In this document: one piece after another, positions 143 through 31,164 of the stretch
Position numbering within the stretch: the first letter of the stretch is position 1
How the letters are laid out: each line of letters begins with the position of its first letter
Source: Lachnospiraceae bacterium
GTDB lineage: Bacteria; Bacillota; Clostridia; Lachnospirales; Lachnospiraceae
Assembly: GCA_017436865.1 (NCBI GenBank)
Contig: JAFSCH010000037.1
Location: 1 to 33,646, forward strand
Length of the DNA: 33,646 nt
Direction: 5' to 3'
Made by a program: the position numbers and the translations under genes
The notes under the pieces: model-generated
The model's database searches: none
Seen by the model: the letters and a program-made list of their open reading frames with translations, nothing else
What the model was told of the DNA's origin: nothing

Positions 143-233
143 TAGGAAAGTGCTGTAGCGTAGTGGCAGTTAGACAAGAATTTCGTAAGAAATTCTTGCC
201 AAAGTGCGTGCGCTGGCACGCACTATTTTTATT
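143..233 (+). repeat. Terminator-trailing palindromic repeat, copy 1
   Basis: This is a ~90-bp unit beginning TAGGAAAGTGCTGTAGCG. It holds two perfect hairpins: CAAGAATTTC-gtaa-GAAATTCTTG, and GTGCGTGC-gctg-GCACGCAC followed by TATTTTTATT. Nearly identical copies lie at 24679-24769 and 31079-31164, and a variant at 14786-14877. The copy starts 6 bp after the T-run of the terminator at 117-136. The second hairpin with its T-rich tail could itself end transcription. Confidence 0.85.
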
Positions 234-451
234 TTATGTTGTGCAAGTTTCCCACTTGGTCCTTTCAGGAGAGTGGTGCGGTTCTGACTGACAGATGAAC
301 TGCAGAAAAGTAGATGAGTTTTTGAGAGATGTGAAGAGATAAGATTGGCACAAAAATGGCATGGTTTTGTCATTCAACAAAGTAGTATGTAGAGGTATGA
401 TTATATTGATAATTAGTTACGACTAACACATAATGGAAAGGAGATAATATA
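234..451 (+). other. Intergenic leader region with two-hairpin element
   Basis: The stretch between repeat copy 1 and the first gene holds the first copy of the two-hairpin element (252-303), listed separately. No convincing -35/-10 pair was found. The strong ribosome binding site AAAGGAG lies at 437-443. Nothing else is recognised, and the long distance from the hairpins to the GTG start leaves it unclear whether they act on the next gene. Confidence 0.4.
252..303 (+). promoter_or_regulatory. Two-hairpin leader element, copy 1
   Basis: Hairpin A pairs CCACT (252-256) with AGTGG (272-276), with an inner CCT/AGG pairing. Hairpin B pairs GCGGTTC (278-284) with GAACTGC (297-303). The second copy (2097-2148) has GCAGTTC in hairpin B, so a G-U pair here is an A-U pair there and the stem is kept. 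It may be a cis-acting RNA element or the leader of a deleted paralogue of the gene at 2162. Confidence 0.55.
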
Positions 452-1264
452 GTGGCTGGAAAAATAAAAAAAGGATTGGGATTATGTGTAATAATGTTAA
501 GTGCAGTATGTGCTAATTTAACTGTTTTAGCAGCAGAAATGAAAAGTGTTGAGAGGGATGATGTTTCAACTGCAATAGAACAAGCTGTAGAGCCAGTAGA
601 AGGTGAAGTTGTTCGTATTGACATTCCAACTGAAGGTGGAGAGTTTATTACGTTGGAAGGAGAGGAAGCGAAAAAGTGGTATATGGAAGCGACTCAAGAA
701 ACGGTAAAAGCACTGATAGAGGATGAAAGTATCCAAAATTATATGGAAAATGTGAATGATAATAGCAATAGGATTATGCCATATGGAGCATTTAAGTATC
801 AATATAGGTATGTGGAGTCAAAACGTACTAATAATGTCAAGAGGACGGATTTGAAAAGAAATGTAACAAATGAATTAACAAACTACACATCAACAACACA
901 ATCTTATCAATTAACGCTTAATGTTTCCCAATCATGGACGATTAATTCGGAAGTGACAGGAAAATATAAAGATGCTGTTACAACTGCTTTGGGCGGTGAA
1001 TGGGGAAAAAGTTATAGTAAAAGCGAATCATTACATATCAATATAGAACCTGGAAAAACTGTTCAAGTGCAATTTGTTCCTATAATGGATAAATCAGTTG
1101 GTGTATCACAAAAGTATTATATTCCTAGAGGCGGAATGAGTAGTAAACCGATTATAGAAAAGAGTGTTTCTGTAACAACATACAATCCTAAATATACTAC
1201 ATGTAAAATAGGGCCATTTACAATGAAATCAGTATATGGGGCATATATATGGATTGAAAAATAA
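452..1264 (+). CDS. Secreted beta-rich protein of unknown function
   Basis: The protein has 270 residues and probably starts at GTG 452, eight bases after AAAGGAG. Residues 1-28 form a Sec-type signal peptide (GKIKKGLGL, hydrophobic core, cleavage near VLAAE), so it is exported. The first ~90 mature residues are acidic. Residues ~105-265 are rich in Ser, Thr, Tyr and Val with alternating polar and apolar residues, a pattern suggesting a beta sandwich or long beta hairpins. The stretch GGEWGKSYSKSES followed by INIEPGKTVQVQFVP recalls aerolysin/ETX-MTX2-type beta-pore-forming proteins, but that is only a resemblance. No anchor or transmembrane helix follows. It stands alone, with a terminator at 1435-1487. 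Existence of the gene is well supported; function is not. Confidence 0.75.
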   Translation: MAGKIKKGLGLCVIMLSAVCANLTVLAAEMKSVERDDVSTAIEQAVEPVEGEVVRIDIPTEGGEFITLEGEEAKKWYMEATQETVKALIEDESIQNYMENVNDNSNRIMPYGAFKYQYRYVESKRTNNVKRTDLKRNVTNELTNYTSTTQSYQLTLNVSQSWTINSEVTGKYKDAVTTALGGEWGKSYSKSESLHINIEPGKTVQVQFVPIMDKSVGVSQKYYIPRGGMSSKPIIEKSVSVTTYNPKYTTCKIGPFTMKSVYGAYIWIEK

Positions 1265-1434
1265 TAGGGATAAACACATTATATTTTCAAATAAAACACT
1301 TTTAGAGAATGTTCGTTTTGTTTGAAAGATTATATGGCGATACAGGATAAAAAAAGATGAATCATAAGTATTATCAAAGGTTACAAAGATTCCGATAATA
1401 ATATTGGAACACAAAATAACACTTAGCTAAGGAT

Positions 1435-1487
1435 AGCGTTATATTTTCATGGAAGATTACCATGTAAAATATAACGCTGTTTTTTTG
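1435..1487 (+). terminator. Strong Rho-independent terminator
   Basis: AGCGTTATATTTTCATGG (1435-1452) pairs with 1460-1478 apart from one bulged A, closing a seven-base loop, and a run of T follows. It lies 170 bp after the secreted-protein gene and just before the next gene, so it separates the two transcription units. Confidence 0.8.
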
Positions 1488-1527
1488 CTTTTTGTTCTTT
1501 TAACAAAATGATGAAAGGAGAAATGCA

Positions 1528-2094
1528 ATGAATGTAAAAGGAATAGGAGGCACATATTCGTATATTTATGATGCTTCAACAGGAAAACTTGCGACCAAGG
1601 ATGGTTTTAAGAATGAGTTTGTAGATTATTACAATGGTGAGTTAAAAGGCGAAGATTCAAAGAGTTTAAATGGTTTTGATGCTAGGATGAAACACGATAT
1701 TGAAAATATGATTATGATTTTTTCAGCTGGTATAGGGAAAAATCCCTTTGTTAATACCATAGAGGACAGTAAATTTGAAATAAGTGGAAATATTGTAGAT
1801 GCTGTGACGACAGAGTATTCGGTTGATGGGCAAAAACTCTTTACTTCTCATTCGGGAATGTCTCTGTCAATTCCGGAAATGTTGGATTATATAGAAAAAA
1901 GTCAGCCTTTTGAGAAACTAATGGCAGAAGGTAATGACTTAACGACAGAACAAAACGTTCATTTGGACTTTGTAAAAGAGGTAGGTATATATACAGATAA
2001 GAGTGTGTCTATGAGTGATGCACAGCAGTTGGTTATGTCACGGTTGGAGAAATATAGCTATCAAATGTTGGCAGATAGAGTGAGGTTTTTTTAA
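1528..2094 (+). CDS. Unknown lineage-type protein, 188 residues
   Basis: ATG 1528 follows GAAAGGAG by seven bases. There is no signal peptide or membrane helix, so the protein is probably cytoplasmic. The N-terminus (MNVKGIGGTYSYIYDASTG) resembles the short Gly/Tyr-rich starts of a family often found in several copies in Lachnospiraceae. The middle contains an Asp/Lys-rich stretch and FDARMKHDIENM, and the C-terminal half is probably helical. I do not recognise a catalytic motif. It sits directly before the larger protein at 2162, with the leader element between them starting 3 bp after its stop codon. The pair probably form one functional unit. Confidence 0.7.
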   Translation: MNVKGIGGTYSYIYDASTGKLATKDGFKNEFVDYYNGELKGEDSKSLNGFDARMKHDIENMIMIFSAGIGKNPFVNTIEDSKFEISGNIVDAVTTEYSVDGQKLFTSHSGMSLSIPEMLDYIEKSQPFEKLMAEGNDLTTEQNVHLDFVKEVGIYTDKSVSMSDAQQLVMSRLEKYSYQMLADRVRFF

Positions 2095-2096
2095 TA

Positions 2097-2148
2097 CCAC
2101 TTGGTCCTTTCAGGAGAGTGGGGCAGTTCTGACTGACAGAGGAACTGC
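2097..2148 (+). promoter_or_regulatory. Two-hairpin leader element, copy 2
   Basis: Hairpin A pairs CCACT (2097-2101) with AGTGG (2117-2121), with an inner CCT/AGG (2106-2108/2112-2114). Hairpin B pairs GCAGTTC (2123-2129) with GAACTGC (2142-2148). The ribosome binding site of the next gene, AAAGGAG (2151-2157), begins three bases later, so folding or protein binding here could control its translation. Most of the ~52 positions match copy 1 at 252-303. Confidence 0.65.
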
Positions 2149-2161
2149 GGAAAGGAGAATT

Positions 2162-3484
2162 ATGCAGATAGGTAGTTGTATGAATGTGGGATATTATATG
2201 CCGTATCAGAGTAGTGTAGGTGTCAAAAAGGATGCTGCAATAGTGCAAGGAACACAGAATGAGTTTGAACAAAATGAATGGACAAGCGCAGTGTCTATAG
2301 CGGAAACAAAGGCTGAGGGAGAGATATTAGGGATTACCATGGTGCCGGAGGAAGGAGAGTCTGTTATATATGGTATGAAGGCAATACTAAGTAACAGGTC
2401 TACACATGATAATCCGATTGTTCAGGTGGTTTCGAATCTTGGTGGAGAACAGGTTCTCTATGATGTAGAAGTGAATAAGGTGAATCCGAAAAATGCGACA
2501 CAGTTAGAGATGTTTGCCTTGTTAAGCTATACCGACAAAATGGGTATTACAGATAGAGGAACCTTTGGTTCGCATCAACGATTAGAAGTGTATAGTAAAA
2601 ATGCAAGTGAGCTTGGATATTGTAATAGTCTGTCTGGAAAAGATGTATTTTTGAATGAGAGATTTGATTGGGCTTCTATTATGGAGAAAATGATACAAGT
2701 GTATCAGGAAGCAGGAATTACGAATCAAGCACAAAATTGTGAAGAACTGTTTGATTTCCTTGATGAATATACACCACAAAGTGAGCAGAAAACAGATGTG
2801 AAAGCTGATTATGAACGACTTGTATCAAATTATGCCAATAAGGTAAAACAGGTATTGGAGGAGGGGGAACCTTCTTATCAAATTGGTTCACAGTCCTTTA
2901 GTGAAAAAGAATGGGATGAGTTTCTTGATAAATTTGATGCAGTGGAAGAGGTTATTAAGGATCAAATGAAGGAAGAACAGGAAAGACGAGAAGAAATGGA
3001 AGAAGCAGAAATGCTGTTAACAACGCCATCTACTTCTTGTGTGTATGAGACAGCAAATCCCAACGATAACGACAATCGATACATTACATGGTATACCGAG
3101 GAAGGTATTTTTTGTAGAAAGGCTGGGCAAACAGAAGGATATGAGTGGACAATTCCTTTTGAAAATGCAGAACAATATAATAAAGTAATCGAATTTATTG
3201 AGCAGTTCCCGTCTGACTGGAATATGCGCTTTGCGGCACATGAAAACTTCTGGAATGATTTTCTGAATAATGAGATTGATATGGATGGCTTTATGGAGTT
3301 TATGAATGGAACGAATAAAGGTGTTCCAGATTTCAGTATGAAGATAGGCGATTCTACCTATATTGATAAAAATAAAGTACAGTGGGCAAAATATACCAAT
3401 CCATTAGGAGCAAGGTTTTATACAGCGGAAGAAATGCAACAGATGCAGAGGGAGATGATTGCCGCTAATAAAAGAAAAATGTAA
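2162..3484 (+). CDS. Unknown conserved protein, 440 residues, with central coiled coil
   Basis: ATG 2162 lies four bases after AAAGGAG and directly downstream of the two-hairpin leader. There is no signal peptide. Residues ~50-200 carry GITMVPEEGESVIYGM, VQVVSNLGGEQVLYDVEVN and MFALLSYTDKMGITD, which I recall as typical of a paralogous family in Roseburia-like genomes (perhaps DUF6033 or DUF3879; not certain). Residues ~235-290 are highly charged (KEEQERREEMEEAEM) and probably a coiled coil. The C-terminal part (FSMKIGDSTYIDKNK, ARFYTAEEMQQMQREM) is soluble and helical. No catalytic motif is visible. The gene follows the 188-residue unknown protein. Confidence 0.75.
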   Translation: MQIGSCMNVGYYMPYQSSVGVKKDAAIVQGTQNEFEQNEWTSAVSIAETKAEGEILGITMVPEEGESVIYGMKAILSNRSTHDNPIVQVVSNLGGEQVLYDVEVNKVNPKNATQLEMFALLSYTDKMGITDRGTFGSHQRLEVYSKNASELGYCNSLSGKDVFLNERFDWASIMEKMIQVYQEAGITNQAQNCEELFDFLDEYTPQSEQKTDVKADYERLVSNYANKVKQVLEEGEPSYQIGSQSFSEKEWDEFLDKFDAVEEVIKDQMKEEQERREEMEEAEMLLTTPSTSCVYETANPNDNDNRYITWYTEEGIFCRKAGQTEGYEWTIPFENAEQYNKVIEFIEQFPSDWNMRFAAHENFWNDFLNNEIDMDGFMEFMNGTNKGVPDFSMKIGDSTYIDKNKVQWAKYTNPLGARFYTAEEMQQMQREMIAANKRKM

Positions 3485-3896
3485 CGATGAAGGTCTAGAA
3501 TAGTTATCTATAAATAAAATGACATGCTGTGAGAGGAGTTTGTGATAAATTACGGATACTGCTCAAACAGCATGGTATTTTTATATTTATCTTGCATTTT
3601 TAGTAGCTTTCTTATATAGTTAATATATTCTAAAATAAATACAGCTTTTGGGTCATAAGAGGTTGTATTTCTTCAAATCTAAGTGTCTATAAGTAGCGAT
3701 AAGTTTGATATAGTTACTTGTGTAAACAAATCTAATTATCTATAATAAATTCAAAGAATCTTTTTCAAAAATCCCACATAAAAGATAAAATTGGTATAGA
3801 GTAAAGATGTTATAACAAAGTTTAGATGAAATACTTCTGATGGATTGAAGGCTGATATTTGTTTTGGATAAGAATAAAAACAATGGAGGACGAAAG
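3485..3896 (+). other. Gene-free stretch with weak hairpin and candidate promoter
   Basis: At 3481-3509 lies a GTAAC-GATGAAGGT-type sequence ending TAGTTATC, related to the perfect hairpin at 20113-20139. CATGCTGT (3523-3530) pairs with ACAGCATG (3567-3574) ahead of a T-rich stretch, a weak possible terminator. A candidate promoter is listed at 3718-3746. No gene is recognised in the rest. Confidence 0.45.
3718..3746 (+). promoter_or_regulatory. Candidate sigma-A promoter of the Rpn-family gene
   Basis: TTGTGT (3718-3723) and TATAAT (3741-3746) are 17 bp apart. The pair lies ~150 bp upstream of the next start codon, in a stretch without a better candidate. Confidence 0.4.
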
Positions 3897-4820
3897 ATGT
3901 CAGAAGTAACCGTAGTAACAACAGAAAAGGACAGAGTGTTTAAAATTATTTTTAGCGACAGGGAGAAGCTTTTAAGCCTGTATAATGCATTGGCGAATAC
4001 TTCTTATGAAGATGCAAGTAAGCTGGAGGTAAATACGCTAGAGGATGTAGTTTTTATTGGGATGAAAAATGATTTATCATTTATTTTAGATGGAAGAATG
4101 AATCTTTATGAACAGCAGTCAACGATAAATCAGAATATGCCCTTACGCGGGTTGTACTATATTGCGGATTTGTATAAGCAAAGGTATCATGGTAAACAGC
4201 TTTATTCATCGAAATTAATTAAGATTCCGACACCACAATATATTGTTTTTTATAATGGAATAAAGGAGTTGCCTGACAGGCAGGAATTGAGACTTTCGGA
4301 TGCGTTTGAGCATCCAACAGATACCCCGGATGTAGAAGTGATAGCACATATCATCAATATAAATATTGGGCATAATGAAGAGTTGTTGAATAAGTGTAAA
4401 GTGTTATGTGATTATTCTGTTTTTAATCAGCGAGTGCGTGAATGCATAGCAGGAGGCATGGCGAAAGAAAATGCCGTAGAGAAAGTGGTAGATAGTTGTA
4501 TTGAGGATGATATTTTAAGAGAAATTCTCAGAAAGGATAGGGCGAGGATTATGGCATCAATATTATCAGAATTTGATGAAATAGGATATGCACAAATGTT
4601 AAGAGAAGAAGGAATTGAGGAAGGAATGACTTTGGGAGAAATGAAAAAACTGATAGAACAGGTGTGTAAAAAATTAAGAAAAAATAAAACTCCCAAATTG
4701 ATAGCAGAAGAACTAGAGGAAGAAGAATTTATGATAAAGAAAATTTGTGAAGTAGCCAATAAGTATGCACCAGATTATGAGATAGATAAGATTTGTGATG
4801 AGTGTTGGCAACTGTTGTAA
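3897..4820 (+). CDS. Rpn-family recombination-promoting nuclease/putative transposase
   Basis: The start is ATG 3897, six bases after GGAGGA (3885-3890); an upstream in-frame TTG at 3864 has no site. The 307-residue protein has the layout of the Rpn (PDDEXK transposase-like) family: an N-terminal KDRVFKIIFSDREKLLSLYN segment, VFIGMKNDLSFILDGRMNLYEQQST with the acidic residues and E-x-Q expected of the PD-(D/E)XK core, then LYKQRYHGKQLY and TPQYIVFYNG. The tail (~200-307) is charged and helical. Known Rpn proteins are DNA endonucleases linked to RecA-independent recombination. No terminal inverted repeats were seen, so it is a stand-alone gene here. Confidence 0.85.
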   Translation: MSEVTVVTTEKDRVFKIIFSDREKLLSLYNALANTSYEDASKLEVNTLEDVVFIGMKNDLSFILDGRMNLYEQQSTINQNMPLRGLYYIADLYKQRYHGKQLYSSKLIKIPTPQYIVFYNGIKELPDRQELRLSDAFEHPTDTPDVEVIAHIININIGHNEELLNKCKVLCDYSVFNQRVRECIAGGMAKENAVEKVVDSCIEDDILREILRKDRARIMASILSEFDEIGYAQMLREEGIEEGMTLGEMKKLIEQVCKKLRKNKTPKLIAEELEEEEFMIKKICEVANKYAPDYEIDKICDECWQLL

Positions 4821-4889
4821 AAACACGTCAATACTGATATACTAGACAGGATATTAAATTACGAGTTGTAAAAAGAGGAGAATAGATTC

Positions 4890-5834: not shown

Positions 5835-5855
5835 TTTGAAAGAAATAAGGTTATA

Positions 5856-5892
5856 TTACACCGAGAATAGGAATCTAATAATGTCGGTGTAA
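5856..5892 (+). other. Perfect hairpin upstream of the radical SAM gene
   Basis: TTACACCGA (5856-5864) pairs perfectly with TCGGTGTAA (5884-5892) around a 19-nt loop. There is no T-run, so it is not a classic terminator. It lies ~20 bp before the next start codon and may affect translation or mRNA stability. Confidence 0.5.
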
Positions 5893-5912
5893 AGGATAAA
5901 TGGGAACAGAAT

Positions 5913-11887: not shown

Positions 11888-12997
11888 ATGAATTTTGGAA
11901 AGGTATCGGAGAGTGTTTATAAGCGCACCGTATATAAAACCATTCATACAATTGGATATTTTGATAAAGAAACAAAAAATGGCGCAGTACTGGGGGCAGA
12001 CTGCGCCTTTTTTCGGCTTACGCCGAAAAAGTCAATAGGTGCGCACTCGTTTGAAGATGAAGAATGTCGCAAGCGACCACACTCGGCGCAAGAATGTGCT
12101 ATGCACATTCCATCTTTAGGTTCATTGGTTACGGCTAGTGGGCAGGCATGGGGAAAGGATGCTGCGGTAGCGACAAGGGCAGCACACCATGCATTAAACC
12201 ATTTGGCGACAATGGGGGCCTTGTGTGATGTGGAAGAAGAAAAAGCAATTGCTTATATCACCTTAAATATGAATATTCCAACAGAGTATCGGGAAGCAAA
12301 GTTGCGGGCAGTCTTGGAAAAAGTGACACAGACAATGGCAGCGATGCGTGTGTCGATTCTCACAACGGAGGTACAGGTTATACCGGGGATTACAACTGTT
12401 CTAGTAACAGCGCATGCGTATGCTTATGGTACAAAGCAAGCAATTCTTGTACCTGGAGGAGCACAACCGGAGCAGGATGTTGTAATGACAAAATGGCTTG
12501 GACTTGAAGGAACAGCAACGATTACAGATAGAAAAATGCGAGAGTTGTTGACTCGTTATCCAGCAGGATTATTAGAGGAAGCTGCAGGGTTTGAAAAATA
12601 CCTGTCGATTATTCCGGAGGCAGCAATCGCCGCACAGTCCGGCGTTAGCGCGATGCAGGTGGTACGCGAAGGTGGCATATTTGGCGCACTTTGGGAGCTT
12701 GCAGAGGAGAGCGGCGTTGGACTGGTCATAGACTTAAAGAAGATACCCGTGAAGCAGGAGACAATAGAGGTTTGTGAGTTTTTTGATGCAAATCCGTACA
12801 AACTGTTAGCAGGAGGAAGCCTTCTGTTTACGACGGACAAGGGCGTGGACCTTGTAGAACTGTTAGGGGAACATGGTATTGCGGCAACTGTAATCGGAAA
12901 GACCATAGAAGGAAATGACCGTATTCTAGTGAACGAGGAAGAGAAGAGATTCCTTGAGCCGGCACGAGAAGATGAATTGTACAAGGTGCTGCAATAA
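11888..12997 (+). CDS. PurM/HypE-like (AIR synthase-related) protein with palindromic insert
   Basis: The 369-residue protein belongs to the AIR synthase-related superfamily that includes HypE, ThiL and PurM. The start MNFGKVSESVYKRTVYK and GADCAFF match its family start and ATP/metal-binding Asp motif. The second half is well preserved: VTKWLGLEGTATI, VREGGIFGALWELAEESGVG, IDLKKIPVKQETIEVCEFF, NPYKLLAGGSLLFTT and VIGKTIEGNDRILVN. Residues ~43-75 are an Arg/Cys/His-rich stretch (RLTPKK to CAMHIPS) that does not look like the family and is encoded by a palindrome-rich insert (12009-12110). The expected DPITGT-like segment after it is also altered (TASGQAWGK). Substrate unknown. Whether the protein still works is unclear. 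Confidence 0.8.
   Translation: MNFGKVSESVYKRTVYKTIHTIGYFDKETKNGAVLGADCAFFRLTPKKSIGAHSFEDEECRKRPHSAQECAMHIPSLGSLVTASGQAWGKDAAVATRAAHHALNHLATMGALCDVEEEKAIAYITLNMNIPTEYREAKLRAVLEKVTQTMAAMRVSILTTEVQVIPGITTVLVTAHAYAYGTKQAILVPGGAQPEQDVVMTKWLGLEGTATITDRKMRELLTRYPAGLLEEAAGFEKYLSIIPEAAIAAQSGVSAMQVVREGGIFGALWELAEESGVGLVIDLKKIPVKQETIEVCEFFDANPYKLLAGGSLLFTTDKGVDLVELLGEHGIAATVIGKTIEGNDRILVNEEEKRFLEPAREDELYKVLQ
12009..12110 (+). repeat. Palindrome-rich in-frame insert inside the PurM-like gene
   Basis: Within ~100 bp lie TTTTTCGGC-ttac-GCCGAAAAA (12009-12030), the palindrome GTGCGCAC (12039-12046), GTCGC-aa-GCGAC (12066-12077) and GAATGTGC-tat-GCACATTC (12092-12110). The stem-with-short-loop style is like the dispersed repeats elsewhere in the window. 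It keeps the reading frame and adds roughly 30 residues, much as Rickettsia palindromic elements do in coding sequence. Confidence 0.6.
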
Positions 12998-14735: not shown

Positions 14736-14750
14736 TAAAATGGTATATAA

Positions 14751-14778
14751 AGTGCAAGCTACTGGGCTTGCACTTTTT
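14751..14778 (+). terminator. Terminator of the regulator-aminotransferase operon
   Basis: AGTGCAAGC (14751-14759) pairs with GCTTGCACT (14766-14774), followed by TTTTT. It lies 16 bp after the aminotransferase stop codon, and repeat copy 2 follows 8 bp after it. Confidence 0.85.
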
Positions 14779-14785
14779 GAAATAA

Positions 14786-14877
14786 TAGAAAATTGCTGTA
14801 ACGAAGTGGTAGTTAGACAAGAATTTCGTAAGAAATTCTTGTCTAACGTGATTGCTACTGAGCAGACACTTTTTTAG
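14786..14877 (+). repeat. Terminator-trailing palindromic repeat, copy 2 (variant)
   Basis: The first half matches the other copies (TAGAAAATTGCTGTAACG, then GACAAGAATTTC). Here the main stem is longer: TTAGACAAGAATTTC-gtaa-GAAATTCTTGTCTAA is a perfect 15-bp stem. The second hairpin is replaced by a different sequence ending in GACACTTTTTTAG, similar to the terminator at 117-136. It begins 7 bp after the T-run at 14774-14778 and ends about 23 bp before trmL. Confidence 0.8.
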
Positions 14878-15391: not shown

Positions 15392-15844
15392 TAGGTATGT
15401 TGAACGATATTAATAGCTGTTATTGAAAAAATAAGGAAAGCGATTTTACGCATGCTTTAAAAAGCCAGAAACGAGACATTGGACTTGTTTTTGGCTTTTT
15501 TTCAATAGGAAAGTTATATGAACTGTTCTACTGAAAAAAATATGCGTAGAATGAAATAAGGAAATTATTACATTGTTCTTTTAGAATGTAAAAAGTGCCA
15601 AAAACTGTTGTGTCCAATGACAAAAAATAAGAAATGGGGGAAAAGTATAGATACATTCCCGAAAAAATATAGATTATCTCTGTTTTTGAGAAAAAATACG
15701 CTAAAAGCCTTGATAAGTTATACAAAATACATAAAATAGAAAGAGTAAGCGACAAAAATATAGATAACATAGCCAAAAGCAAATAATGGCACAAATGGCG
15801 TAAAATAAGCAAAAAATGGAAGAAAACAATAAAAACAAGGAAAT
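15392..15844 (+). other. Gene-free stretch, terminator then A-rich remnant DNA
   Basis: After the trmL terminator, ~300 bp are strongly A-rich on the plus strand and broken by stop codons in all frames checked by eye. The motif AAAA(A/G)TATAGAT recurs three times (near 15643, 15664 and 15755). No gene is recognised. The following isomerase fragment starts abruptly, so this stretch may be the far side of a deletion or insertion. Confidence 0.4.
15421..15507 (+). terminator. Terminator after trmL
   Basis: AAAAAGCCAGAAAC (15459-15472) pairs with GTTTTTGGCTTTTT (15487-15500), followed by T. An outer pairing, TATTGAAAAAA (15421-15431) with the T-rich tail and TCAATA (to 15507), could extend the stem. 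Confidence 0.75.
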
Positions 15845-16642: not shown

Positions 16643-16931
16643 GCCTGATTGGATTTCGAGGTTGTGAAGGCAAGCGAATCCATATTCTTGTCTCTTGCTA
16701 GTCGTTTGAAGTCAAGATTTTCTAAGCACCTCTATATAGAGATGTAAGACGGTCGGGTCGGTGCAAATTCGCATCCATGCTCAGTTGCACCTTGCGCGTA
16801 CATCCGTGTACGCGCAGCCCTGCTATGTTAAAGAGGTGCTAAGTAAATCTAAGACTTCTCACTAAATCGCAATTCAACAAGAATACTGGATTTGTTGCCA
16901 GGCAACGTTGAGATTCCAATCAGGCTTTTTT
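16643..16931 (+). ncRNA. 289-nt long-hairpin element with terminator-like end; candidate structured RNA
   Basis: GCCTGATTGGA (16643-16653) pairs with TCCAATCAGGC (16915-16925), followed by six T. Inside, the two arms stay complementary, imperfectly, for about 90 bases: CCATATTCTTGT with ACAAGAATACTGG, and AGCACCTCT (16725-16733) with AGAGGTGCT (16832-16840). At the tip are two hairpins: GGTGCAA/TTGCACC (16760-16766/16785-16791) and TGCGCGTACA-tccg-TGTACGCGCA (16793-16816). It begins 12 bp after the isomerase fragment. It may be a structured RNA, or a palindromic element lodged in the loop of the old isomerase terminator. I do not recognise it as tmRNA, RNase P, SRP or 6S RNA. Confidence 0.5.
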
Positions 16932-20141: not shown

Positions 20142-20207
20142 AAAAAGCGAGTGTATGGAAGCCTCAAGGTTAATGCTTGAGAGTGATACGATGCACTTGC
20201 TTTTTTT
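20142..20207 (+). terminator. Terminator of xylB
   Basis: GCGAGTGTAT (20147-20156) pairs with ATGCACTTGC (20191-20200) including two G-U pairs, with an inner CTCAAG/CTTGAG hairpin. Seven T follow. Confidence 0.75.
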
Positions 20208-20255
20208 GATATCTAGGAAAGACTTTGTCATACTAATGTGTAGAGAGGATAAAAA

Positions 20256-21300: not shown

Positions 21301-22506
21301 ATGAAAAAAAATAGAATATGGAAAATGGTTGCAGGTTGTCTTAGTGGAGCTTTGTTATTGACAGGATGTGGGGCACAGGCATCAGATGTTGGCAGAGTAG
21401 ATACCGTATCAGCCAGTGCATCTAAAAAGAGTATTGTATGTACTACTTATCCGCAGTATGACTGGGTTTGTGAAATTCTAGGAGAAAAAAAGGATCAGTT
21501 TGAAGTGACCTTACTTCTTGACAATGGTGTAGATCTGCACAGTTATCAACCAACGGCAATGGATATGGTAAAGATTAGTACGGCAGATGCATTTATCTAT
21601 GTTGGAGGAGAATCTGAAAATTGGGTAGAGGATGCTTTAAAAGAAGTTACCAATAAAAATATACAAGTAATGAACATGGTAGATGTTTTAGGAGAACGTG
21701 TAAAACCAGAAGAATTTGTAGAAGGCATGGAGCATCATCATGATCATGAACATGATGAAGAGCATGAAAATCATGAGCATGACGACGATCATGAACACGA
21801 TGAAGAGCATGAAAATCATGAGCATGACGACGATCATGAACACGATGAAGAGCATGAAAATCATGAGCATGACGACGATCATGAACACGATGAAGAACAT
21901 GAAAATCATGAGCATGGCGACGATCATGAACACGATGAAGAACATGAAAATCATGAGCATGAACACGAAACAGATGAGCATATATGGCTTTCTTTGAAAA
22001 ATGCTAAGCTTTTGGTGGAGAGTATCACAGATTTAGTAGTAGAAATGGATCGTGAAAATGAACTTGTTTATGAGAAAAATTGCAACGATTATGTAGAAAA
22101 ATTGAATGCATTGGATCAGGAATATGAACAGCTGGTAAATGCATCGGAGAAGAAAACGGTAGTGTTTGGGGATAGATTTCCGTTCCGCTATCTAATGGAT
22201 GATTATGGTATTTCCTATTATGCAGCATTTGCAGGATGTAGTGCTGAGACAGAGGCAAGTTTTGAAACAGTGACATTTTTGGCAGGAAAAATAGATGAAT
22301 TATCACTAAAGAGTATTTTGGTATTGGAAAATGCAGAGACAAAGCTTGCAGAGACCATAAAACAGAATACCACAACAAAAGATCAAAATATTTTGCATAT
22401 GGATTCCATTCAAACCGTAACACAAACAGATATAGCAAATGGATTTACTTATTTGAAGGCGATGCAGGAGAATTTGGAAGTGCTTAAAGAAGTACTTGGA
22501 ATGTAA
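21301..22506 (+). CDS. znuA: Zinc-binding lipoprotein of a ZnuABC-type transporter
   Basis: The start is ATG 21301 after GGAGAG (21288-21293). The 401-residue product has a lipoprotein signal (LLLTGC, Cys23). The mature part matches cluster A-I metal-binding proteins: VCTTYPQYDWVCEILGEK, NGVDLHSYQPTAMDMVKI with the first His ligand, and DEHIWLSLKNAKLLVESI with the second. Between them, residues ~143-226 form a His/Asp/Glu loop of five 15-residue repeats. The usual third His region (H-x-A-F/Y) reads VFGDRFPFRYLMDDYG, so that ligand seems absent; EASFETVTFLAG follows. It captures zinc outside the membrane and hands it to ZnuB. Confidence 0.92.
   Translation: MKKNRIWKMVAGCLSGALLLTGCGAQASDVGRVDTVSASASKKSIVCTTYPQYDWVCEILGEKKDQFEVTLLLDNGVDLHSYQPTAMDMVKISTADAFIYVGGESENWVEDALKEVTNKNIQVMNMVDVLGERVKPEEFVEGMEHHHDHEHDEEHENHEHDDDHEHDEEHENHEHDDDHEHDEEHENHEHDDDHEHDEEHENHEHGDDHEHDEEHENHEHEHETDEHIWLSLKNAKLLVESITDLVVEMDRENELVYEKNCNDYVEKLNALDQEYEQLVNASEKKTVVFGDRFPFRYLMDDYGISYYAAFAGCSAETEASFETVTFLAGKIDELSLKSILVLENAETKLAETIKQNTTTKDQNILHMDSIQTVTQTDIANGFTYLKAMQENLEVLKEVLGM
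21742..21966 (+). repeat. Five tandem 45-bp repeats in znuA
   Basis: Five units of 45 bp start at 21742, 21787, 21832, 21877 and 21922, each encoding DHEHDEEHENHEHDD or a close variant. They differ at only a few bases, so they arose recently and may vary in number between strains. They lie in the metal-collecting loop of the protein. Confidence 0.95.
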
Positions 22507-24633: not shown

Positions 24634-24672
24634 AGAAGGTATACGAAAATAGATTGTATACCTTCTATTTTT
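24634..24672 (+). terminator. Terminator of the zinc operon
   Basis: AGAAGGTATAC (24634-24644) pairs perfectly with GTATACCTTCT (24656-24666), followed by ATTTTT. It lies just after the last gene of the zinc operon and 6 bp before repeat copy 3. Confidence 0.88.
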
Positions 24673-24678
24673 AAATAT

Positions 24679-24769
24679 TAGGAAATTGCTGTAACATAGT
24701 GGTAGTTAGACAAGAATTTCGGCAGAAATTCTTGCCAAAGTGCGTGCGCTGGCACGCACTATTTTTATT
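24679..24769 (+). repeat. Terminator-trailing palindromic repeat, copy 3
   Basis: TAGGAAATTGCTGTAACATAG starts the unit; the first hairpin has CAAGAATTTC and GAAATTCTTG around a changed loop (ggca), and the second hairpin GTGCGTGC-gctg-GCACGCAC with TATTTTTATT is identical to copies 1 and 4. Confidence 0.85.
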
Positions 24770-24869: not shown

Positions 24870-24898
24870 TTGTAAAAAAGTGCATACTGTAGTTATAT
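24870..24898 (+). promoter_or_regulatory. Candidate promoter of the lactate dehydrogenase gene
   Basis: TTGTAA (24870-24875) and TTATAT (24893-24898) are 17 bp apart, 26 bp before the start codon. The -10 box is poor, so this is tentative. Confidence 0.35.
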
Positions 24899-24923
24899 CT
24901 ATAAGAAAGGACACCCATCTAGT

Positions 24924-25904: not shown

Positions 25905-25940
25905 TTATAGAAAAGTCACTTTTTATGGGGTGAGATTAGG

Positions 25941-26468
25941 ATGATATTGGGAAAAAGGGAAACAAAAATCATAAAGAATTATCAAATGCAGGAGGAAAAG
26001 CCGAACATAGTAGTGCGTTCGGCTTACAGGGATGAATGGGATGACGCCATGGCGTTAGCGTGGCGCACCTTCATGCGGTTTGAGGCGGATGACTATTCGA
26101 CAGAAGGGATAAAAAGCTTTCAGGATTTTATAACGGATACAACGTTATACCGTATGTTTGTAATGGGAGCATATCAGCTATTTTGTGCTTTGGATGGAAA
26201 GAAATTGGTTGGCATGATTAGTCTTAGAAATGAAACGCATATATCATTATTGTTTGTAGATGCTTCTTATCATAAAAAGGGTGTTGGAAGAGCTTTAATT
26301 GAGCATGTAGGAAAATATGTTCTTTTGGAAGAAGGTTTTCATAGACTGACTGTGAATGCAGCACCGTATGCGGTTGGTTTTTATCATAAACTAGGTTTTC
26401 ATGATACAGATACAGAGAAGATAAATGATGGAATTCGCTATACACCAATGGAAAAGAAACTGGTGTGA
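25941..26468 (+). CDS. GNAT-family N-acetyltransferase
   Basis: The 175-residue protein starts at ATG 25941. After a polar start of ~28 residues, VRSAYRDEWDDAMALAWRTF begins the GNAT fold, LVGMISLRNETHISLLFVD is the central strand pair, YHKKGVGRALIEHV is the acetyl-CoA pyrophosphate loop, and VNAAPYAVGFYHKLGFHDTD the last motif. It transfers an acetyl group to an unknown small molecule or protein. It follows ldhA by 36 bp and precedes the HD-GYP-type gene by 18 bp, so the three may share a transcript. Confidence 0.88.
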   Translation: MILGKRETKIIKNYQMQEEKPNIVVRSAYRDEWDDAMALAWRTFMRFEADDYSTEGIKSFQDFITDTTLYRMFVMGAYQLFCALDGKKLVGMISLRNETHISLLFVDASYHKKGVGRALIEHVGKYVLLEEGFHRLTVNAAPYAVGFYHKLGFHDTDTEKINDGIRYTPMEKKLV

Positions 26469-26486
26469 TACATAGGAGGGGACAAA

Positions 26487-27743
26487 ATGGCAATAGAATA
26501 TATTACAAGTAAAAATCTGTTTTCGTTAATCTGTGATACTTTAAAATTAATGGATAAGTCTTTGGTAAAGCATGGAAAAAGAGTTAGCTATATCATGTCA
26601 AAAATGCTGGAATGCAAAGGGGGATATGAAAAATATGAGATAGCTGATTTTATGTTGCTTGCCGTTTTACATGATATCGGAGCTTATAAAACAGATGACG
26701 TGAGAAAGCAGCTTACCTTTGAGGCAAAGAATCCATTGCCACATTCCATTTACGGTTATCTTTTTCTGAAGTATCTTTCTCCGCTGGAGGAGCAGTCTAA
26801 GATGATTTTGTATCATCATGCGGATACGTCACAGATAGCGCATGTTGATTATACATATATGGATGAAGCGGAGATTTTAAAGGTTGCAGAAATCATGGAC
26901 ATTTGGATGAAAGCCTTTGGTGAGAAGTTCGATCCGCATATGATTGATCGTTATCGAGGAACGAAATATCAGGATGAGGCGTGTGACTTATTGTTTGAAG
27001 CTGTGGAAAAATATGATATTTTCACAAAACTTAAGGATGGTTCTTATGAGAAGGAATATGAGGAAAGTCTGGAATACATTTTGCTTTCAGATGAAGAAAA
27101 GGAAAAATATTTAAAGATGCTGATGTATTGCACAGGTCTTAGGGATGAGACTATGGTATCGAGTACCATTGCGACTATTTATGTCAGCAGAGAAATTGGT
27201 AAAAAGTTGCGAATCAGCGAGTTGGATAAGAATGAGATTTATTATGCAGCACTGTTACATGACTTAGGAATGCTTGCTATGCCAAAGGAATTAATTGATG
27301 CACCTAGAAAATTGGAAGAGGCAGAATTGAATCTCATTCATACACATGTGGAACTGACAAGTGAAGCACTTAAGGGCAAACTTGCGCAGAGTATTATTGA
27401 TATATCAGCTACTCACCATGAGCGTTTTGATGGTAGTGGATATCCACGTGGCATTAAAGGTAGTGTTATGAATAATAAGCAGGCAATTTTGCAGATTGCA
27501 GAGTTGGTAGTAAACTTGAGCAGTGATAAACCATATCGAAAGGCGCATTCCAAGGAGGAAATCGTAAAAGAACTCAATGATGGTATTGTATCCGGTAAGT
27601 TTGATGGTATTGTAACGGATACCTTCTTAAAGTACTATGATGAGATTATGGAAAAGGCAATGGAAAAAGCGTCGGCAGCACTTGTGCTATATCAGAAGTT
27701 GCAACGTAACAGTGACCAGGTTTATAAGAATTTTACAAAATAG
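26487..27743 (+). CDS. HD and HD-GYP domain phosphohydrolase
   Basis: The 418-residue protein starts at ATG 26487 after AGGAGGGG. It has two HD modules. The first (~10-150) has LLAVLHDIGAYKTDD and ILYHHADTS. The second (~225-400) is HD-GYP: AALLHDLGMLAMPKEL, LIHTHVELTSEAL, ISATHHERFDGSGYPRG, then ILQIAELVVNLS. HD-GYP proteins hydrolyse cyclic di-GMP or related cyclic dinucleotides. No sensor or receiver domain is attached, so the input is unknown. The last codons (YKNFTK and stop) are repeated after the lectin gene at 28874-28895. Confidence 0.9.
   Translation: MAIEYITSKNLFSLICDTLKLMDKSLVKHGKRVSYIMSKMLECKGGYEKYEIADFMLLAVLHDIGAYKTDDVRKQLTFEAKNPLPHSIYGYLFLKYLSPLEEQSKMILYHHADTSQIAHVDYTYMDEAEILKVAEIMDIWMKAFGEKFDPHMIDRYRGTKYQDEACDLLFEAVEKYDIFTKLKDGSYEKEYEESLEYILLSDEEKEKYLKMLMYCTGLRDETMVSSTIATIYVSREIGKKLRISELDKNEIYYAALLHDLGMLAMPKELIDAPRKLEEAELNLIHTHVELTSEALKGKLAQSIIDISATHHERFDGSGYPRGIKGSVMNNKQAILQIAELVVNLSSDKPYRKAHSKEEIVKELNDGIVSGKFDGIVTDTFLKYYDEIMEKAMEKASAALVLYQKLQRNSDQVYKNFTK
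27721..27739 (+). repeat. 19-bp direct repeat flanking the lectin gene, left copy
   Basis: TTTATAAGAATTTTACAAA forms the end of the HD-GYP gene here and recurs exactly at 28874-28892, 1.15 kb downstream, after the lectin gene. Both copies read YKNFTK followed by a stop codon in the same frame. Confidence 0.9.
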
Positions 27744-27859
27744 TATAGATAGTTAGTAATTGAAGGTTGAAAAATAAACAGCGTTAGTGTATAGTTTTCT
27801 GATGTGTATTGATTTACATAACCAATACAAAAAGAGAAGTTATGAGGAAGGACAAAACG

Positions 27860-28849
27860 ATGAAAAAATTTGGAACAAAAGTATTTGTAGCACTAACGAC
27901 AATAGGATTGGCTTTAGGTAGTATGCCATTAACAATCAATGCTGCAGAGCCACAGGCTGCTGTAATGATTCCAGCGAATGCAGGAACATTTAATGGGCAT
28001 TATTATTATGTATTTAATAATGAGAATTATACTTATGAACAGGCTAAACTGTTTTGTGAAGCTGTAGGAGGATATCTTGCAACAATTACAAGTCAAGAAG
28101 AGAATGATTATGTATTTCAGTATATGAAGCTTTCAGGATATCAAAGTGCATATTTTGGACTTAGTGATTCTGCAACTGAGGGAACATGGACCTGGTCCAA
28201 TGGTGAAACTGTAAACTATACAAATTGGTCAAAGAATGAACCGAATGCAGAGCGTAGTGATGAAGATTATGCAATGTTTTACTATAAGTATGAGACTGGA
28301 AAATGGAATGATGGTAATTTCGGAAATGGAACAGTACGTGGTGGAAAAGCATTTATCTGTGAATGGAATGGAGATGCAACAGGACAAGTACCTGTAGCAA
28401 CAGAACCAGTAGTAGCACAGCCGACCACAACAATTCCAATGCCGGTAGATGCAGGTGTGTTTAATGGTCATCATTATTACATATATAATGGTGCAGGCTA
28501 TACATATGAACTGGCTGCTCAACACTGCATTATGGCAGGGGGATATCTTGCAACAGTTACAAGTCAGGAAGAAAATGATTACTTATATCAATATATGAAG
28601 AATGTTGGATATGAGAGTGCATATTTTGGATTAAGCGATGCAGCGTTAGAAGGAACATGGGTGTGGTCTAATGGTGAATTGTTAGAGTATACTAATTGGG
28701 CACAGGACGAGCCAAATGCTGTAAGTAGTGGAGAAGACTATGGAATGTTCTATTATAGAAATAAAGATGGAAAATGGAACGACGGAGACTTTGATTCAGG
28801 TACTACAATAGCAGGTGGTAAAGCATTTATTTGTGAGTGGAATTACTAG
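27860..28849 (+). CDS. Secreted protein with two tandem C-type lectin domains
   Basis: The start is ATG 27860, after AGGAAGGA (27845-27852); a longer in-frame version from 27809 has no good site. The 329-residue product has a signal peptide (MKKFGTKVFVALTTIG, cleavage near INAAE). Two domains of ~125 residues follow (~40-165 and ~195-325), joined by a Pro/Thr/Val linker. Each has GHYYY or GHHYY, the first-helix Cys in LFCEA or QHCIM, GGYLAT-x-TSQEENDY, YFGLSD, WTWSNGE or WVWSNGE, EPNA, KWNDG and AFICEWN. EPN and WND are the calcium- and sugar-binding motifs of mannose-type lectins. No membrane or wall anchor follows, so it is probably released. Sugar or matrix binding in the gut is likely. 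Confidence 0.9.
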   Translation: MKKFGTKVFVALTTIGLALGSMPLTINAAEPQAAVMIPANAGTFNGHYYYVFNNENYTYEQAKLFCEAVGGYLATITSQEENDYVFQYMKLSGYQSAYFGLSDSATEGTWTWSNGETVNYTNWSKNEPNAERSDEDYAMFYYKYETGKWNDGNFGNGTVRGGKAFICEWNGDATGQVPVATEPVVAQPTTTIPMPVDAGVFNGHHYYIYNGAGYTYELAAQHCIMAGGYLATVTSQEENDYLYQYMKNVGYESAYFGLSDAALEGTWVWSNGELLEYTNWAQDEPNAVSSGEDYGMFYYRNKDGKWNDGDFDSGTTIAGGKAFICEWNY

Positions 28850-28873
28850 AATTGATTATCATAAATGAAGATA

Positions 28874-28895
28874 TTTATAAGAATTTTACAAAGTG
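28874..28895 (+). pseudogene. Relic of the HD-GYP gene 3' end after the lectin gene
   Basis: The 19 bp at 28874-28892 are identical to 27721-27739. Including the bases before and after, the frame reads N-E-D-I-Y-K-N-F-T-K and a stop, close to the real end N-S-D-Q-V-Y-K-N-F-T-K. It looks like the last ten or so codons of a second copy of the HD-GYP gene, or the far side of an insertion that carried in the lectin gene. Confidence 0.6.
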
Positions 28896-28911
28896 ATTTT
28901 CACCCAATTTA

Positions 28912-28940
28912 TTGAAATGAAAAATGAAACATAGTATTAT
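28912..28940 (+). promoter_or_regulatory. Promoter of the DUF624 gene
   Basis: TTGAAA (28912-28917) and TATTAT (28935-28940) are separated by 17 bp, ~40 bp before the start codon at 28980. Confidence 0.55.
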
Positions 28941-28979
28941 ATTTTCTAGCAGTTTTTGCTCGAGAGGAGAAGGTATACT

Positions 28980-29684
28980 ATGTTTAAATTAGACAGTCCA
29001 TTGATGAATTTTTTGGGAAAAGTATGTGACATTATGATTCTGAATGTCCTAGTGATTGTTTTCAGCATTCCCATATTCACAGCAGGTGCAGCAATCACGG
29101 CAGCCTATTCCGTTGCGTATAAGATGGTGAAAAACGAAGAGGGGCATATTACAAAAGGTTTTTTTAAAGCGTTCAAGGAGAACTTTAAACAATCAACAGC
29201 AATTTGGCTGATTTTCCTTGCAGTATTTTTTATATTATTCTTTGATTATAGAATTATGTTCTATTCCGAAGTGGAATTAAATGAGTTGATACAGTATGGT
29301 GTAATTGCGGTAACGGTGATTCTGGCGATGGGATTTTCTTTCGTATTTCCGCTTCAGGCAAGATTTAGTAATACAGTAAAGAATACGATTAAGAACTCAT
29401 TTTTAATGGCGTTATCCCATTTGCCAAGTGCGATATTGTTTGTGGTATCTTACGCAGTTCCAATTCTTGCGTTTTACTTCTTGCCTCAGTTAGGTCCTGT
29501 GGTACTCATGCTTGCTTGTGGTTTACTTCCTTATGCAAAGTCATTCTTGTTTTTGAAAATCTTCAAAAAATATGAGGTTATGATAGCAAATAATGAACAA
29601 GAGGAAGAATCGACTGGAGAAGGAATCTTTGCAGTTAGTGATGCAATGGAGAAAATGTCTGAAAATAATAAGAAAAAGAAGTAA
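28980..29684 (+). CDS. DUF624 (YesL-like) membrane protein
   Basis: The start is ATG 28980 after GAGGAGAAGG; a TTG at 28956 is less likely. The 234-residue protein has about five membrane helices. The start SPLMNFLGKVCDIMILNVL, IFTAGAAITAAYSVAYKMV and KGFFKAFKENFKQSTAIW are hallmark blocks of DUF624/YesL proteins, which usually lie beside sugar ABC transporters. A charged tail (~205-234) is cytoplasmic. The next gene encodes the shared ATPase of such transporters, which fits, but no permease or binding-protein gene is seen here. Function is unproven. Confidence 0.85.
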   Translation: MFKLDSPLMNFLGKVCDIMILNVLVIVFSIPIFTAGAAITAAYSVAYKMVKNEEGHITKGFFKAFKENFKQSTAIWLIFLAVFFILFFDYRIMFYSEVELNELIQYGVIAVTVILAMGFSFVFPLQARFSNTVKNTIKNSFLMALSHLPSAILFVVSYAVPILAFYFLPQLGPVVLMLACGLLPYAKSFLFLKIFKKYEVMIANNEQEEESTGEGIFAVSDAMEKMSENNKKKK

Positions 29685-29746
29685 TTACAAGAGAATAAAA
29701 AATACATATTCGTCAATCTGTACATGTAAAAGTATATGGCTTAGTC

Positions 29747-29794
29747 AAGTTGCTTACTGAGCGGACAAATCGTTCGTTTGGTAAGCAACTTTTA
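29747..29794. terminator. Long hairpin between the DUF624 gene and msmK
   Basis: AAGTTGCTTAC (29747-29757) pairs perfectly with GTAAGCAACTT (29781-29791), then TTT. The stem continues inward with several G-U pairs, giving about 20 pairs in all. It could end transcription of the DUF624 gene; the A-rich left flank would allow the same on the other strand. Confidence 0.5.
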
Positions 29795-29905
29795 CATAAC
29801 GTCTAAAAAATATTTGTGGATTTGTGGCATAGCATTTTTAAATAAATTCTTATATACTTAGAGCATACGAAAACACGATATAATATTTTTCGGGAGGAAA
29901 GAAAA

Positions 29906-31018
29906 ATGGCAAGTTTATCTTTAAAAAATGTGTGCAAAGTATATCCTAATGGATTTGAAGCAGTAAAGGATTTCAATCTTGAAATCGCTGACAAGGAATT
30001 CATCATCTTCGTAGGACCTTCAGGATGTGGTAAGTCTACTACACTCCGTATGATCGCAGGTCTTGAAGATATTTCTTCAGGTGAATTAAGAATCGGTGAT
30101 AGATTAGTAAATGATGTAGAGCCTAAGGACAGAGATATCGCAATGGTATTCCAGAACTACGCTCTTTACCCACATATGACAGTATATGATAACATGGCAT
30201 TCGGTCTTAAGTTAAGAAAAGTTCCTAAGGCTGAAATCGATAAGATGGTAAAAGAAGCAGCTAAGATTCTTGATCTTGAGAAGCTTCTTGATCGTAAGCC
30301 AAAGGCTTTATCCGGTGGTCAGAGACAGCGAGTTGCTATGGGACGTGCTATCGTTCGTAATCCTAAGGTATTCCTTATGGATGAGCCTCTTTCAAACTTG
30401 GATGCTAAGTTACGTGTACAGATGCGTATCGAGATCGCTAAGTTACATCAGAGATTAGGTACAACCATCATCTACGTTACACATGACCAGACAGAGGCTA
30501 TGACTCTTGGTACAAGAATCGTTGTTATGAAGGATGGTATCGTACAGCAGGTAGATACACCACAGAACTTATATGAGAAGCCACAGAACTTATTCGTTGC
30601 AGGATTCATGGGATCTCCTCAGATGAACTTCCTTGATGCAAAGGTAGAAGTTACAGGTGATGTAGCAAACTTAAAGATTGCAGATCTTACTATTGCACTT
30701 CCACCAGCTAAGTCTAAGAAGTTAATTGAAGGCGGATACAACGGAAAGACAGTTACTTTCGGTATCAGACCAGAAGATATCTATGATTCTCAGATGATGG
30801 TAGAAGCTAAGTCTGGAAGCACATTCGAGACAACTATCCGTGTATACGAGTTACTCGGTGCAGAAGTATTCTTATATGCTGATTTAGCTGACTTCCCTAT
30901 CACAGCTAGAGTTGATCCTAGAACAACAGCTAGACCTGGCGATAAGGTTAAGTTCGCTATCGACGTTGAAAAGATTCACGTATTCGATAAGGAAACAGAA
31001 AAGGTTATCACAAACTAA
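29906..31018 (+). CDS. msmK: Sugar ABC transporter ATP-binding protein, MsmK/UgpC type
   Basis: The 370-residue protein starts at ATG 29906 after GGGAGGAAAG. It has Walker A GPSGCGKST (residues 37-45), the Q-loop VFQNYALYPHM, the signature LSGGQRQRVAMGRA, Walker B VFLMDEPLSNLD and the switch VTHDQTEA. Residues ~240-370 form the MalK-type OB/TOBE domain (VAGFMGSPQMNFL, FGIRPEDIYDS). Proteins of this type energise several carbohydrate importers encoded elsewhere. Codon use is much more selective than in its neighbours (many ATC, GCT, CTT and GGT), pointing to high expression. A TATAAT box lies at 29879-29884, and a strong terminator follows. Confidence 0.94.
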   Translation: MASLSLKNVCKVYPNGFEAVKDFNLEIADKEFIIFVGPSGCGKSTTLRMIAGLEDISSGELRIGDRLVNDVEPKDRDIAMVFQNYALYPHMTVYDNMAFGLKLRKVPKAEIDKMVKEAAKILDLEKLLDRKPKALSGGQRQRVAMGRAIVRNPKVFLMDEPLSNLDAKLRVQMRIEIAKLHQRLGTTIIYVTHDQTEAMTLGTRIVVMKDGIVQQVDTPQNLYEKPQNLFVAGFMGSPQMNFLDAKVEVTGDVANLKIADLTIALPPAKSKKLIEGGYNGKTVTFGIRPEDIYDSQMMVEAKSGSTFETTIRVYELLGAEVFLYADLADFPITARVDPRTTARPGDKVKFAIDVEKIHVFDKETEKVITN

Positions 31019-31040
31019 TCTGAATATATGTTGTAAATTT

Positions 31041-31069
31041 ACCCGAGTGGTTCGCCACTCGGGTTTTTT
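31041..31069 (+). terminator. Terminator of msmK
   Basis: ACCCGAGTGG (31041-31050) and CCACTCGGGT (31055-31064) form a perfect 10-bp stem with a TTCG tetraloop, followed by T. Repeat copy 4 starts 9 bp further on. Confidence 0.95.
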
Positions 31070-31078
31070 GTTCCTTTA

Positions 31079-31164
31079 TAGGAAAGTGCTGTAGCGTAGT
31101 GGCAGTTAGACAAGAATTTCGTAAGAAATTCTTGCCAAAGTGCGTGCGCTGGCACGCACTATTT
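31079..31164 (+). repeat. Terminator-trailing palindromic repeat, copy 4
   Basis: It is almost identical to copy 1 (143-233) from TAGGAAAGTGCTGTAGCG through both hairpins, and differs only in the tail (TATTTGTTCG in place of TATTTTTATT). Confidence 0.85.

Follow-up and report, generated by a model that had tools for sequence, protein, structure and literature searches.

The 33,646-nucleotide stretch of Lachnospiraceae DNA analysed here (contig JAFSCH010000037.1 of assembly GCA_017436865.1; hereafter the window) carries four copies of a short palindromic repeat, each of them directly behind a Rho-independent terminator. This raises the question of how the same sequence came to stand behind several different terminators: by insertion targeted to them, or as a functional addition to the host's transcripts, both of which the initial annotation had suggested. 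The evidence presented below indicates that the element is almost certainly a non-autonomous repeat inserted in a terminator-targeted manner; judged from sequence comparison, its orientation relative to the terminator is fixed.

Copies behind terminators in the window and the genome

All four copies lie on the + strand, as do their landing-site terminators, and over 98 nt the identity to copy 1 is 68, 89 and 98% in the remaining three. Copy 1 (~138-230) consists of a 6-nt tip, CTTTAT, an AGGAAA start, a central hairpin, and a 3′ hairpin that runs into ATTTTT; its terminator, a hairpin with a T-run, occupies 114-137 (hairpin ~114-136, −8.8 kcal/mol). Copy 2 (~14781-14875), a divergent subtype with an extended central hairpin, follows the terminator of an aminotransferase gene (14749-14780; hairpin 14749-14778, −17.2 kcal/mol). 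Because this hairpin is similar to the one at the 3′ end of element subtype D, the copy-2 terminator may itself be an old element remnant. Copy 3 (~24674-24766) stands behind a terminator at 24634-24673 (hairpin 24634-24672, −16.4 kcal/mol), and copy 4 (~31074-31166) behind one at 31041-31073, which includes a GTTC (hairpin 31041-31069, −18.8 kcal/mol); the right end of copy 4, TTTGTTC, repeats the motif on its left. The unit coordinates are those given by genome-wide boundary statistics (see below).

Each copy has a separate hairpin and T-run upstream, and the stem sequences of the four hairpins are all different, which bears out the initial annotation both on the common orientation and on the sequence diversity of the terminators. 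The distance from the last host T to AGGAAA (or AGAAAA) is 7, 8, 7 and 10 nt at copies 1-4, in agreement with the 6-9 bp first reported, where the starts were placed one base earlier. The repeat can rightly be called palindromic insofar as it has two hairpins, one in the centre and one on the 3′ side with a T-run behind it. The 3′ end of the element is terminator-like, and in copies 1, 3 and 4 of the window the 3′ hairpin and T-run are listed as such.

The genome to which the window belongs (G000; 4.2 Mb in 169 contigs, completeness 99.7, contamination 7.7; the window is contig C30) contains the 5′ module of the element 138 times at up to 3 mismatches, 82 times forward and 56 times reverse, while a reversed-pattern control gave 0; places are given for 100 of the 138 matches. 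Contig C167 repeats the copy-4 site, and some contigs of the assembly may derive from a second strain. In 568,817 fetched non-redundant bases, a sample gathered around 5′ modules and hence not random DNA, 124 copies were found at up to 6 mismatches. The 3′ type was recognised in 107 copies, of which 79 have no element directly upstream and 28 do (by pattern). Units form head-to-tail tandem stacks with a period of 93-94 nt, or 67 nt in a short variant. Several copies sit at contig ends, and so the element probably contributes to contig breaks in short-read assemblies.

The position behind terminators holds for most of this sample. A strict pattern finds a hairpin with T-run within 70 nt upstream of 101 of 124 copies, and all but one of these end 6-16 nt before AGGAAA; a hairpin with T-run ends 6-30 nt upstream of 50 of 3000 random positions. 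In RNA folding, the T-run is immediately preceded by a hairpin of −6 kcal/mol or better at 106 of 122 copies, compared with 253 of 1500 ordinary T-runs (sampled from 8601 in the same DNA as the copies); two of the 124 copies lack enough flank for this test, and for tandem copies the neighbour's terminator was counted. Among isolated copies, 43 of 52 have a hairpin and T-run upstream in their own orientation, and 0 of 52 have one facing their 3′ end. The enrichment behind terminators and the single orientation that the initial annotation predicted from four copies are therefore found genome-wide. The 16 folding misses comprise three copies behind another element or remnant, three just below the threshold (−5.7 to −5.9), and ten without a clear hairpin (C10:8771, C22:3904, C33:33721, C44:64475, C84:5591, C88:3458, C88:7061, C118:33206, which is doubtful as a copy, C126:145 and C155:7263).

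In stretches longer than 8 kb, 50 of 55 copies lie on the G-rich strand, but this bias is uninformative as to replication, because 91% of the coding lies on that strand too. Searches of phages and plasmids returned no match to the element, and exact-pattern scans of viral contigs were equally negative, so nothing indicates that these spread it. The window copies have no match in Rfam.

Empty sites, unit boundaries and hairpins

A search of 60 genomes, the window's own included, gave element matches in 10, all of the same genus. An exact-pattern scan of named genomes returned 11 stretches in five Lachnospiraceae metagenome-assembled genomes (four from goat gut, plus SUG387), several contigs of which match G000 at ~99%. 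Two congeners, G014 and G021, were compared site by site. Thirty-five upstream flanks (of 64 candidates, picked for an open frame) served as queries and gave 18 matches in G014 and 24 in G021; 15 loci were read in each, covering 21 distinct G000 sites. In neither congener was the element seen at any of the 15 orthologous flanks, whereas a hairpin with T-run is present within ~120 nt at 13 of 15 loci in each. As the query was the upstream flank only, downstream orthology holds where the alignment shows it; locus L238 stops ~20 nt past its T-run, and the relative of C148:42791 is aligned downstream only. Clean empty sites are seen at C71:1837, C37:31474, C17:27356, C111:16559 and C44:62686, and the landing hairpin of window copy 4 is conserved in G021, where the element is absent. 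Since terminators stand at congener flanks that show no element, the comparison shows them to be older than the insertions at the compared sites.

Some filled sites are apparently shared. According to BLAST positions, without individual alignment, G014 seems to have the element as well at C44:60614, C70:58368, C8:22035 and the site of the window copy at 14787. Among 30 listed loci of the aminotransferase gene in the genus, an element stands behind the gene only in G000 and G014, and locus L182 has a terminator-like hairpin with no element. C103:1171 was considered as a further shared site and rejected, the G014 copy being at the opposite end of the matching stretch.

The empty sites, which keep their terminators, together with the enrichment and the single orientation, support the proposal that insertion is targeted to terminators. 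They also bear on the other suggestion, that the repeat is an immobile host module under selection, acting as a second terminator, as RNA end protection or as a source of small RNA. Its hairpins are conserved and three of the four window copies have a terminator-like 3′ end, as would be expected of such a module; yet it is unseen at all compared flanks of two congeners, its versions are species-specific, and it forms tandem arrays. As an account of the origin of the repeat this is very improbable. A function acquired as a consequence of insertion is more plausible, since each copy ends in a terminator-like hairpin and may supply backup terminators to many operons; the distribution of the copies is left unexplained by it.

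The limits of the unit were determined on the basis that a base travelling with the element should correlate with the subfamily of its body (78 copies on the left, 49 on the right). Left-flank positions −6, −5, −3 and −2 before AGGAAA do so (z 11.2, 10.1, 10.3 and 5.5), while from −7 outwards there is no correlation (z at most 2.5). Among right-flank positions, 4 and 5 after CACT correlate (z 4.4 and 2.9) and later ones not clearly (z at most 2.5). On these flank statistics the unit is ~93 nt long, close to the tandem period, begins just past the T-run of the host and closes with a hairpin and ATTTTT of its own, the left T-run being the host's and the right one the element's. In 19 A-type copies without GTTC, the right T-run has 5 T in 14, while the left ones span 4-8. 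The sharp left boundary and the near-constant right T-run argue against a target duplication. The linker between T-run and body was also considered as a duplication and is unsupported, since the similarity of the 7-nt linkers is matched by 192 of 1000 shuffles (139 of 1000 for A-type only).

The hairpins are maintained through changes on both sides of the stems: 99% of cells in the A and the B/D sets alike remain paired, against 32-54% in slid controls. Of 65 distinct bodies 63 are of normal length, and 61 of these were aligned as A1 (2 left out); alignments A2 and A3 hold 40 and 16, and five mixed-type rows of A1 were excluded from the covariation counts. Covariation was tallied separately for A and B/D because the types pair in different registers: the B/D set has 25 double-change cells compared with 7.7 in shuffles (0 of 500 as high), and the A set 2 compared with 0.1 (1 of 500 as high).

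Route of movement and candidate mobilisers

Taken as a whole, the reading that a gene-free, non-autonomous repeat of ~93 nt is targeted to terminators in one orientation and moved by a single-strand route like that of IS200/IS605 has, in our estimate, an even chance of being right. The route itself is the best fit to the ends and the orientation, and is a serious candidate at somewhat below even odds. It would proceed as follows. Extrusion of the hairpin at an intrinsic terminator already in place would leave the T-run single-stranded, and an enzyme acting in trans on the element as single-stranded DNA would cut behind a T-rich motif, TTTTTA or TTTGTTC, which the target shares with the right end of the element, following the ‘peel and paste’ logic of IS200/IS605, so that the copy is inserted directly 3′ of the T-run in one orientation. 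Every new copy would rebuild the target, and tandem arrays without gene damage would follow. The unit boundaries, the empty sites, the pairing kept in the hairpins and the near absence of 5′-truncated copies count in favour of this reading, as does the coupling of the motifs: the motif after the T-run agrees between left and right in 34 of 52 copies, compared with 22.9 in shuffles (0 of 5000 as high). TTTGTTC drives this signal; it is on both sides in 7 copies, on the right only in 5 and on the left only in 2, and follows only 5 of 253 control terminators.

Several observations weigh against this reading. Without the GTTC rows the left/right agreement is 27 of 38, compared with 24.1 in shuffles (604 of 5000 as high), and is not significant; a left G is paired with a right A in 7 of 11 cases. 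About 10 of 122 copies have no obvious hairpin upstream, and three of the nine D-type 3′ hairpins lack a 5′ module, each of them being a terminator that precedes another element. The lengths of the left and right T-runs correlate weakly (r 0.30, p 0.02, 48 copies; r 0.35, p 0.07, 19 copies), and the 12-mers beside the element, T-run included, are slightly more alike than when shuffled (9 of 1000 as high). Together with the TTTGTTC coupling, these last two give some weight to a short target duplication. On this ground one may propose a classical miniature inverted-repeat transposable element (MITE), mobilised by a DDE transposase that has escaped notice and that duplicates a T-rich target of ~6-7 bp. 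TTTGTTC on both sides, the T-run length correlation, and the sister palindromes of G000 and G011, which have T-run inverted repeats, speak for it; but alignments A1-A3 show, by eye, no clear terminal inverted repeat in the element, the left G is followed by a right A in 7 of 11 cases, and the right T-runs are nearly constant. We regard it as a distinctly improbable explanation.

Further points against the preferred single-strand route concern the enzyme. Y1 transposase matches were found in G000 (two full and two partial; the two full proteins presumably being IS200 TnpA-like) and in G001, G029, G004 and G031. There was no Y1 match in G011 and G021 (96% complete each), G014 (78%), G027 (74%) or G009 (94%), none of the searched assemblies being complete; yet G011 has 16 element matches and G021 has 17 (the latter count recorded as G065 and assigned to G021 from identical places). 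In 15 loci read by eye, the IS200 copies of the genus differ from the element in their ends. The tnpA of IS200, in G000 and the genus, was thus not adopted as mobiliser, as the ends differ and several carriers have no match. Among the same loci, the three IS200 copies most similar to the G000 protein (L293, L294 and L295, in three species) lie directly behind terminator-like hairpins that have T-rich tails (by eye), a precedent in the genus that favours the single-strand route.

The lack of a Y1 match in two 96% complete carriers could be accommodated by a model with no dedicated enzyme, in which replication stalls at the terminator hairpin, the nascent T-run end switches to another T-run, copies the unit and returns, the repeat spreading by T-run microhomology. 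That T-runs flank both sides and that no target duplication is clear are consistent with it, as is the right junction of C37:31474, at which ~12 nt of host sequence found in G014 are missing (by eye). On such a model, however, any sequence between T-runs should spread, whereas the repeats are mostly of a few families that have one tip in common; the left edge is sharply defined at −6; and 5′-truncated copies are hardly seen. Template switching is therefore unlikely in our view, if worth keeping in mind.

The scarcity of truncated copies bears also on retrotransposition in trans by the reverse transcriptase of a group IIC-type intron, by which an RNA ending in its own terminator U-run would be copied into terminator DNA, as in a bacterial short interspersed element (SINE). 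The target class is that of published bacterial-C introns, in the part of PMC8919778 that describes it. The group II intron maturase domain (GIIM) has three matches in G000, one of which belongs to a degenerate group II intron behind the terminator of an element on C134; its Rfam match starts ~88 nt past the element T-run, and its start directly behind the element was judged by eye. Incomplete copying, though, predicts 5′ truncation. The 3′ hairpins with and without a 5′ module number 69 and 0 for type A, 34 and 1 for type B, and 6 and 3 for type D (hairpins near a stretch start omitted), i.e. the module is missing at 0 of 69 A-type and 1 of 35 B-type hairpins in a sample fetched around 5′ modules, where copies truncated elsewhere are under-sampled, a limit that also tells against the preferred route. 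About 9 of 124 copies have instead lost their 3′ part (by eye). This mode of movement seems improbable, and none of the IS200 tnpA or group II intron matches is shown to move the repeat. Separately, on the − strand of L287 the sequence directly upstream of an IS200 tnpA looks by eye like group II intron domains V-VI.

The relatives of the element offer another candidate. Related versions with the same tip, hairpins and location behind terminators exist in G011, G021, G027, G029, G001 and G014; 89 sites with T-run and tip are listed at those loci, 55 with a hairpin of −6 or better, of which a few are not elements as judged by eye, and at least six element-like sites have no strong hairpin (in L054, L063, L069, L139, L202 and L208). 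In G000, 127 of 241 TAGGAAA sites have a T-run within 14 nt, compared with 7-13% of sites for six control 7-mers. The present element accounts for 104 of the 127, and about half of the other 23 lie behind terminators (by eye). Other families in G000 therefore carry the same tip. A longer sister element with this tip (TTTTTACTTTATAGGAAAGT, ACTTTATAGGAAAGTTCTC) ends contigs in G000 and G014 (L013 end, L107 end, L258 and L263), its interior being unassembled; present at contig ends in two species, it may belong to the mobiliser. It is also plausible, though less likely than not, that the elements are a genus-wide lineage of minimal mobile DNA for which terminators are a niche rebuilt with each insertion, the machinery being neither the resident Y1 transposase nor a group II intron but a new transposase, perhaps in the longer sister, or template switching.

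Two tip-sharing sequences lie in the window, both on the + strand. At 15460-15545 the terminator of a trmL-like gene (−19.5 kcal/mol) is followed by TAGGAAAGTT / TAGGAAAGTTATATG and a different body, likely another family with the same tip. At 20200-20245 a T-run is followed by ATATCTAGGAAAGAC / ATATCTAGGAAAGACTTTGTCATACTAATGTGT, a third family with the shared tip, to which a sequence with inverted T-run ends on contig C41 (L024) is related; no strong hairpin was found directly before the T-run at 20200-20245. Palindromes with T-run inverted ends (TTTTTATTCCATAGGA...TCCTATGGAATAAAAA and the like) occur behind terminators or elements in G000 and G011 (L021 150-205, L061, L264). An in-frame palindromic stretch at ~12086-12112 (protein stretch EECRKRPHSAQECAMHIPS), inside what is presumably an AIR-synthase-like gene, resembles another palindrome family found behind terminators.

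The window has other features. A TwoAYGGAY RNA (Rfam) lies at 16701-16865 on the − strand, and a 57-nt direct repeat, 93% identical, at 252-308 and 2097-2153 (CCACTTGGTCCTTTCAGGAGAGTGG...). A 45-nt in-frame tandem repeat at 21685-22013 encodes a His/Asp/Glu-rich stretch in a gene which we take to be zinc-binding-lipoprotein-like.

Comparison with known systems

IS200/IS605 elements insert without target duplication, in one orientation, 3′ of a short motif that is repeated at their right end, and have hairpins near their ends. The present element resembles them and their non-autonomous derivatives in its hairpins and single orientation, and may do so in lacking a clear duplication and in having a target-like motif at the right end, the latter chiefly on the strength of the TTTGTTC copies; it differs in that no transposase with matching ends was found and some carriers have no Y1 match.

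REP and REPIN sequences are short, gene-free, palindromic repeats of high copy number, hypothetically moved in trans (PMC3733652; see also PMC8266576 and PMC3116915), and the element is like them in all of these structural respects. REPs are, however, 20-40 bp long with a terminal GTAG, whereas the element is ~93 nt long and no REP-associated tyrosine transposase (RAYT) was recognised here. A strict location behind terminators is not reported for REPs in PMC3733652, the main text of which does not use the word ‘terminator’, as far as its accessible part goes. SPRITE, of Streptococcus pneumoniae, is a small terminator-like repeat enriched at the 3′ ends of genes (PMC3049150, in part); it itself resembles a terminator, and neither landing behind existing terminators nor stacking is described in that part of the source. 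No report of a short terminator-targeted repeat was found in the open-licence literature. The terminal inverted repeats of a MITE are, as discussed above, a further point of difference.

Group IIC (bacterial-C) introns insert just behind intrinsic terminators, according to the relevant part of PMC8919778, and the initial annotation had named them as a parallel. The parallel holds for the target, a location just 3′ of an intrinsic terminator being common to both. It does not extend to the repeat itself: group IIC introns are intron ribozymes with a reverse transcriptase, whereas the repeat is ~93 nt long, and at the gathering threshold Rfam recognises no intron in the window. One class of retroelement was already known to find a safe insertion site at terminators. 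Here a gene-free repeat of ~93 nt occupies the same niche more than 100 times in one genome and appears to regenerate it, and arrays of terminator-like hairpins therefore grow behind genes; the recognition of terminators as insertion sites becomes testable with a tiny substrate.

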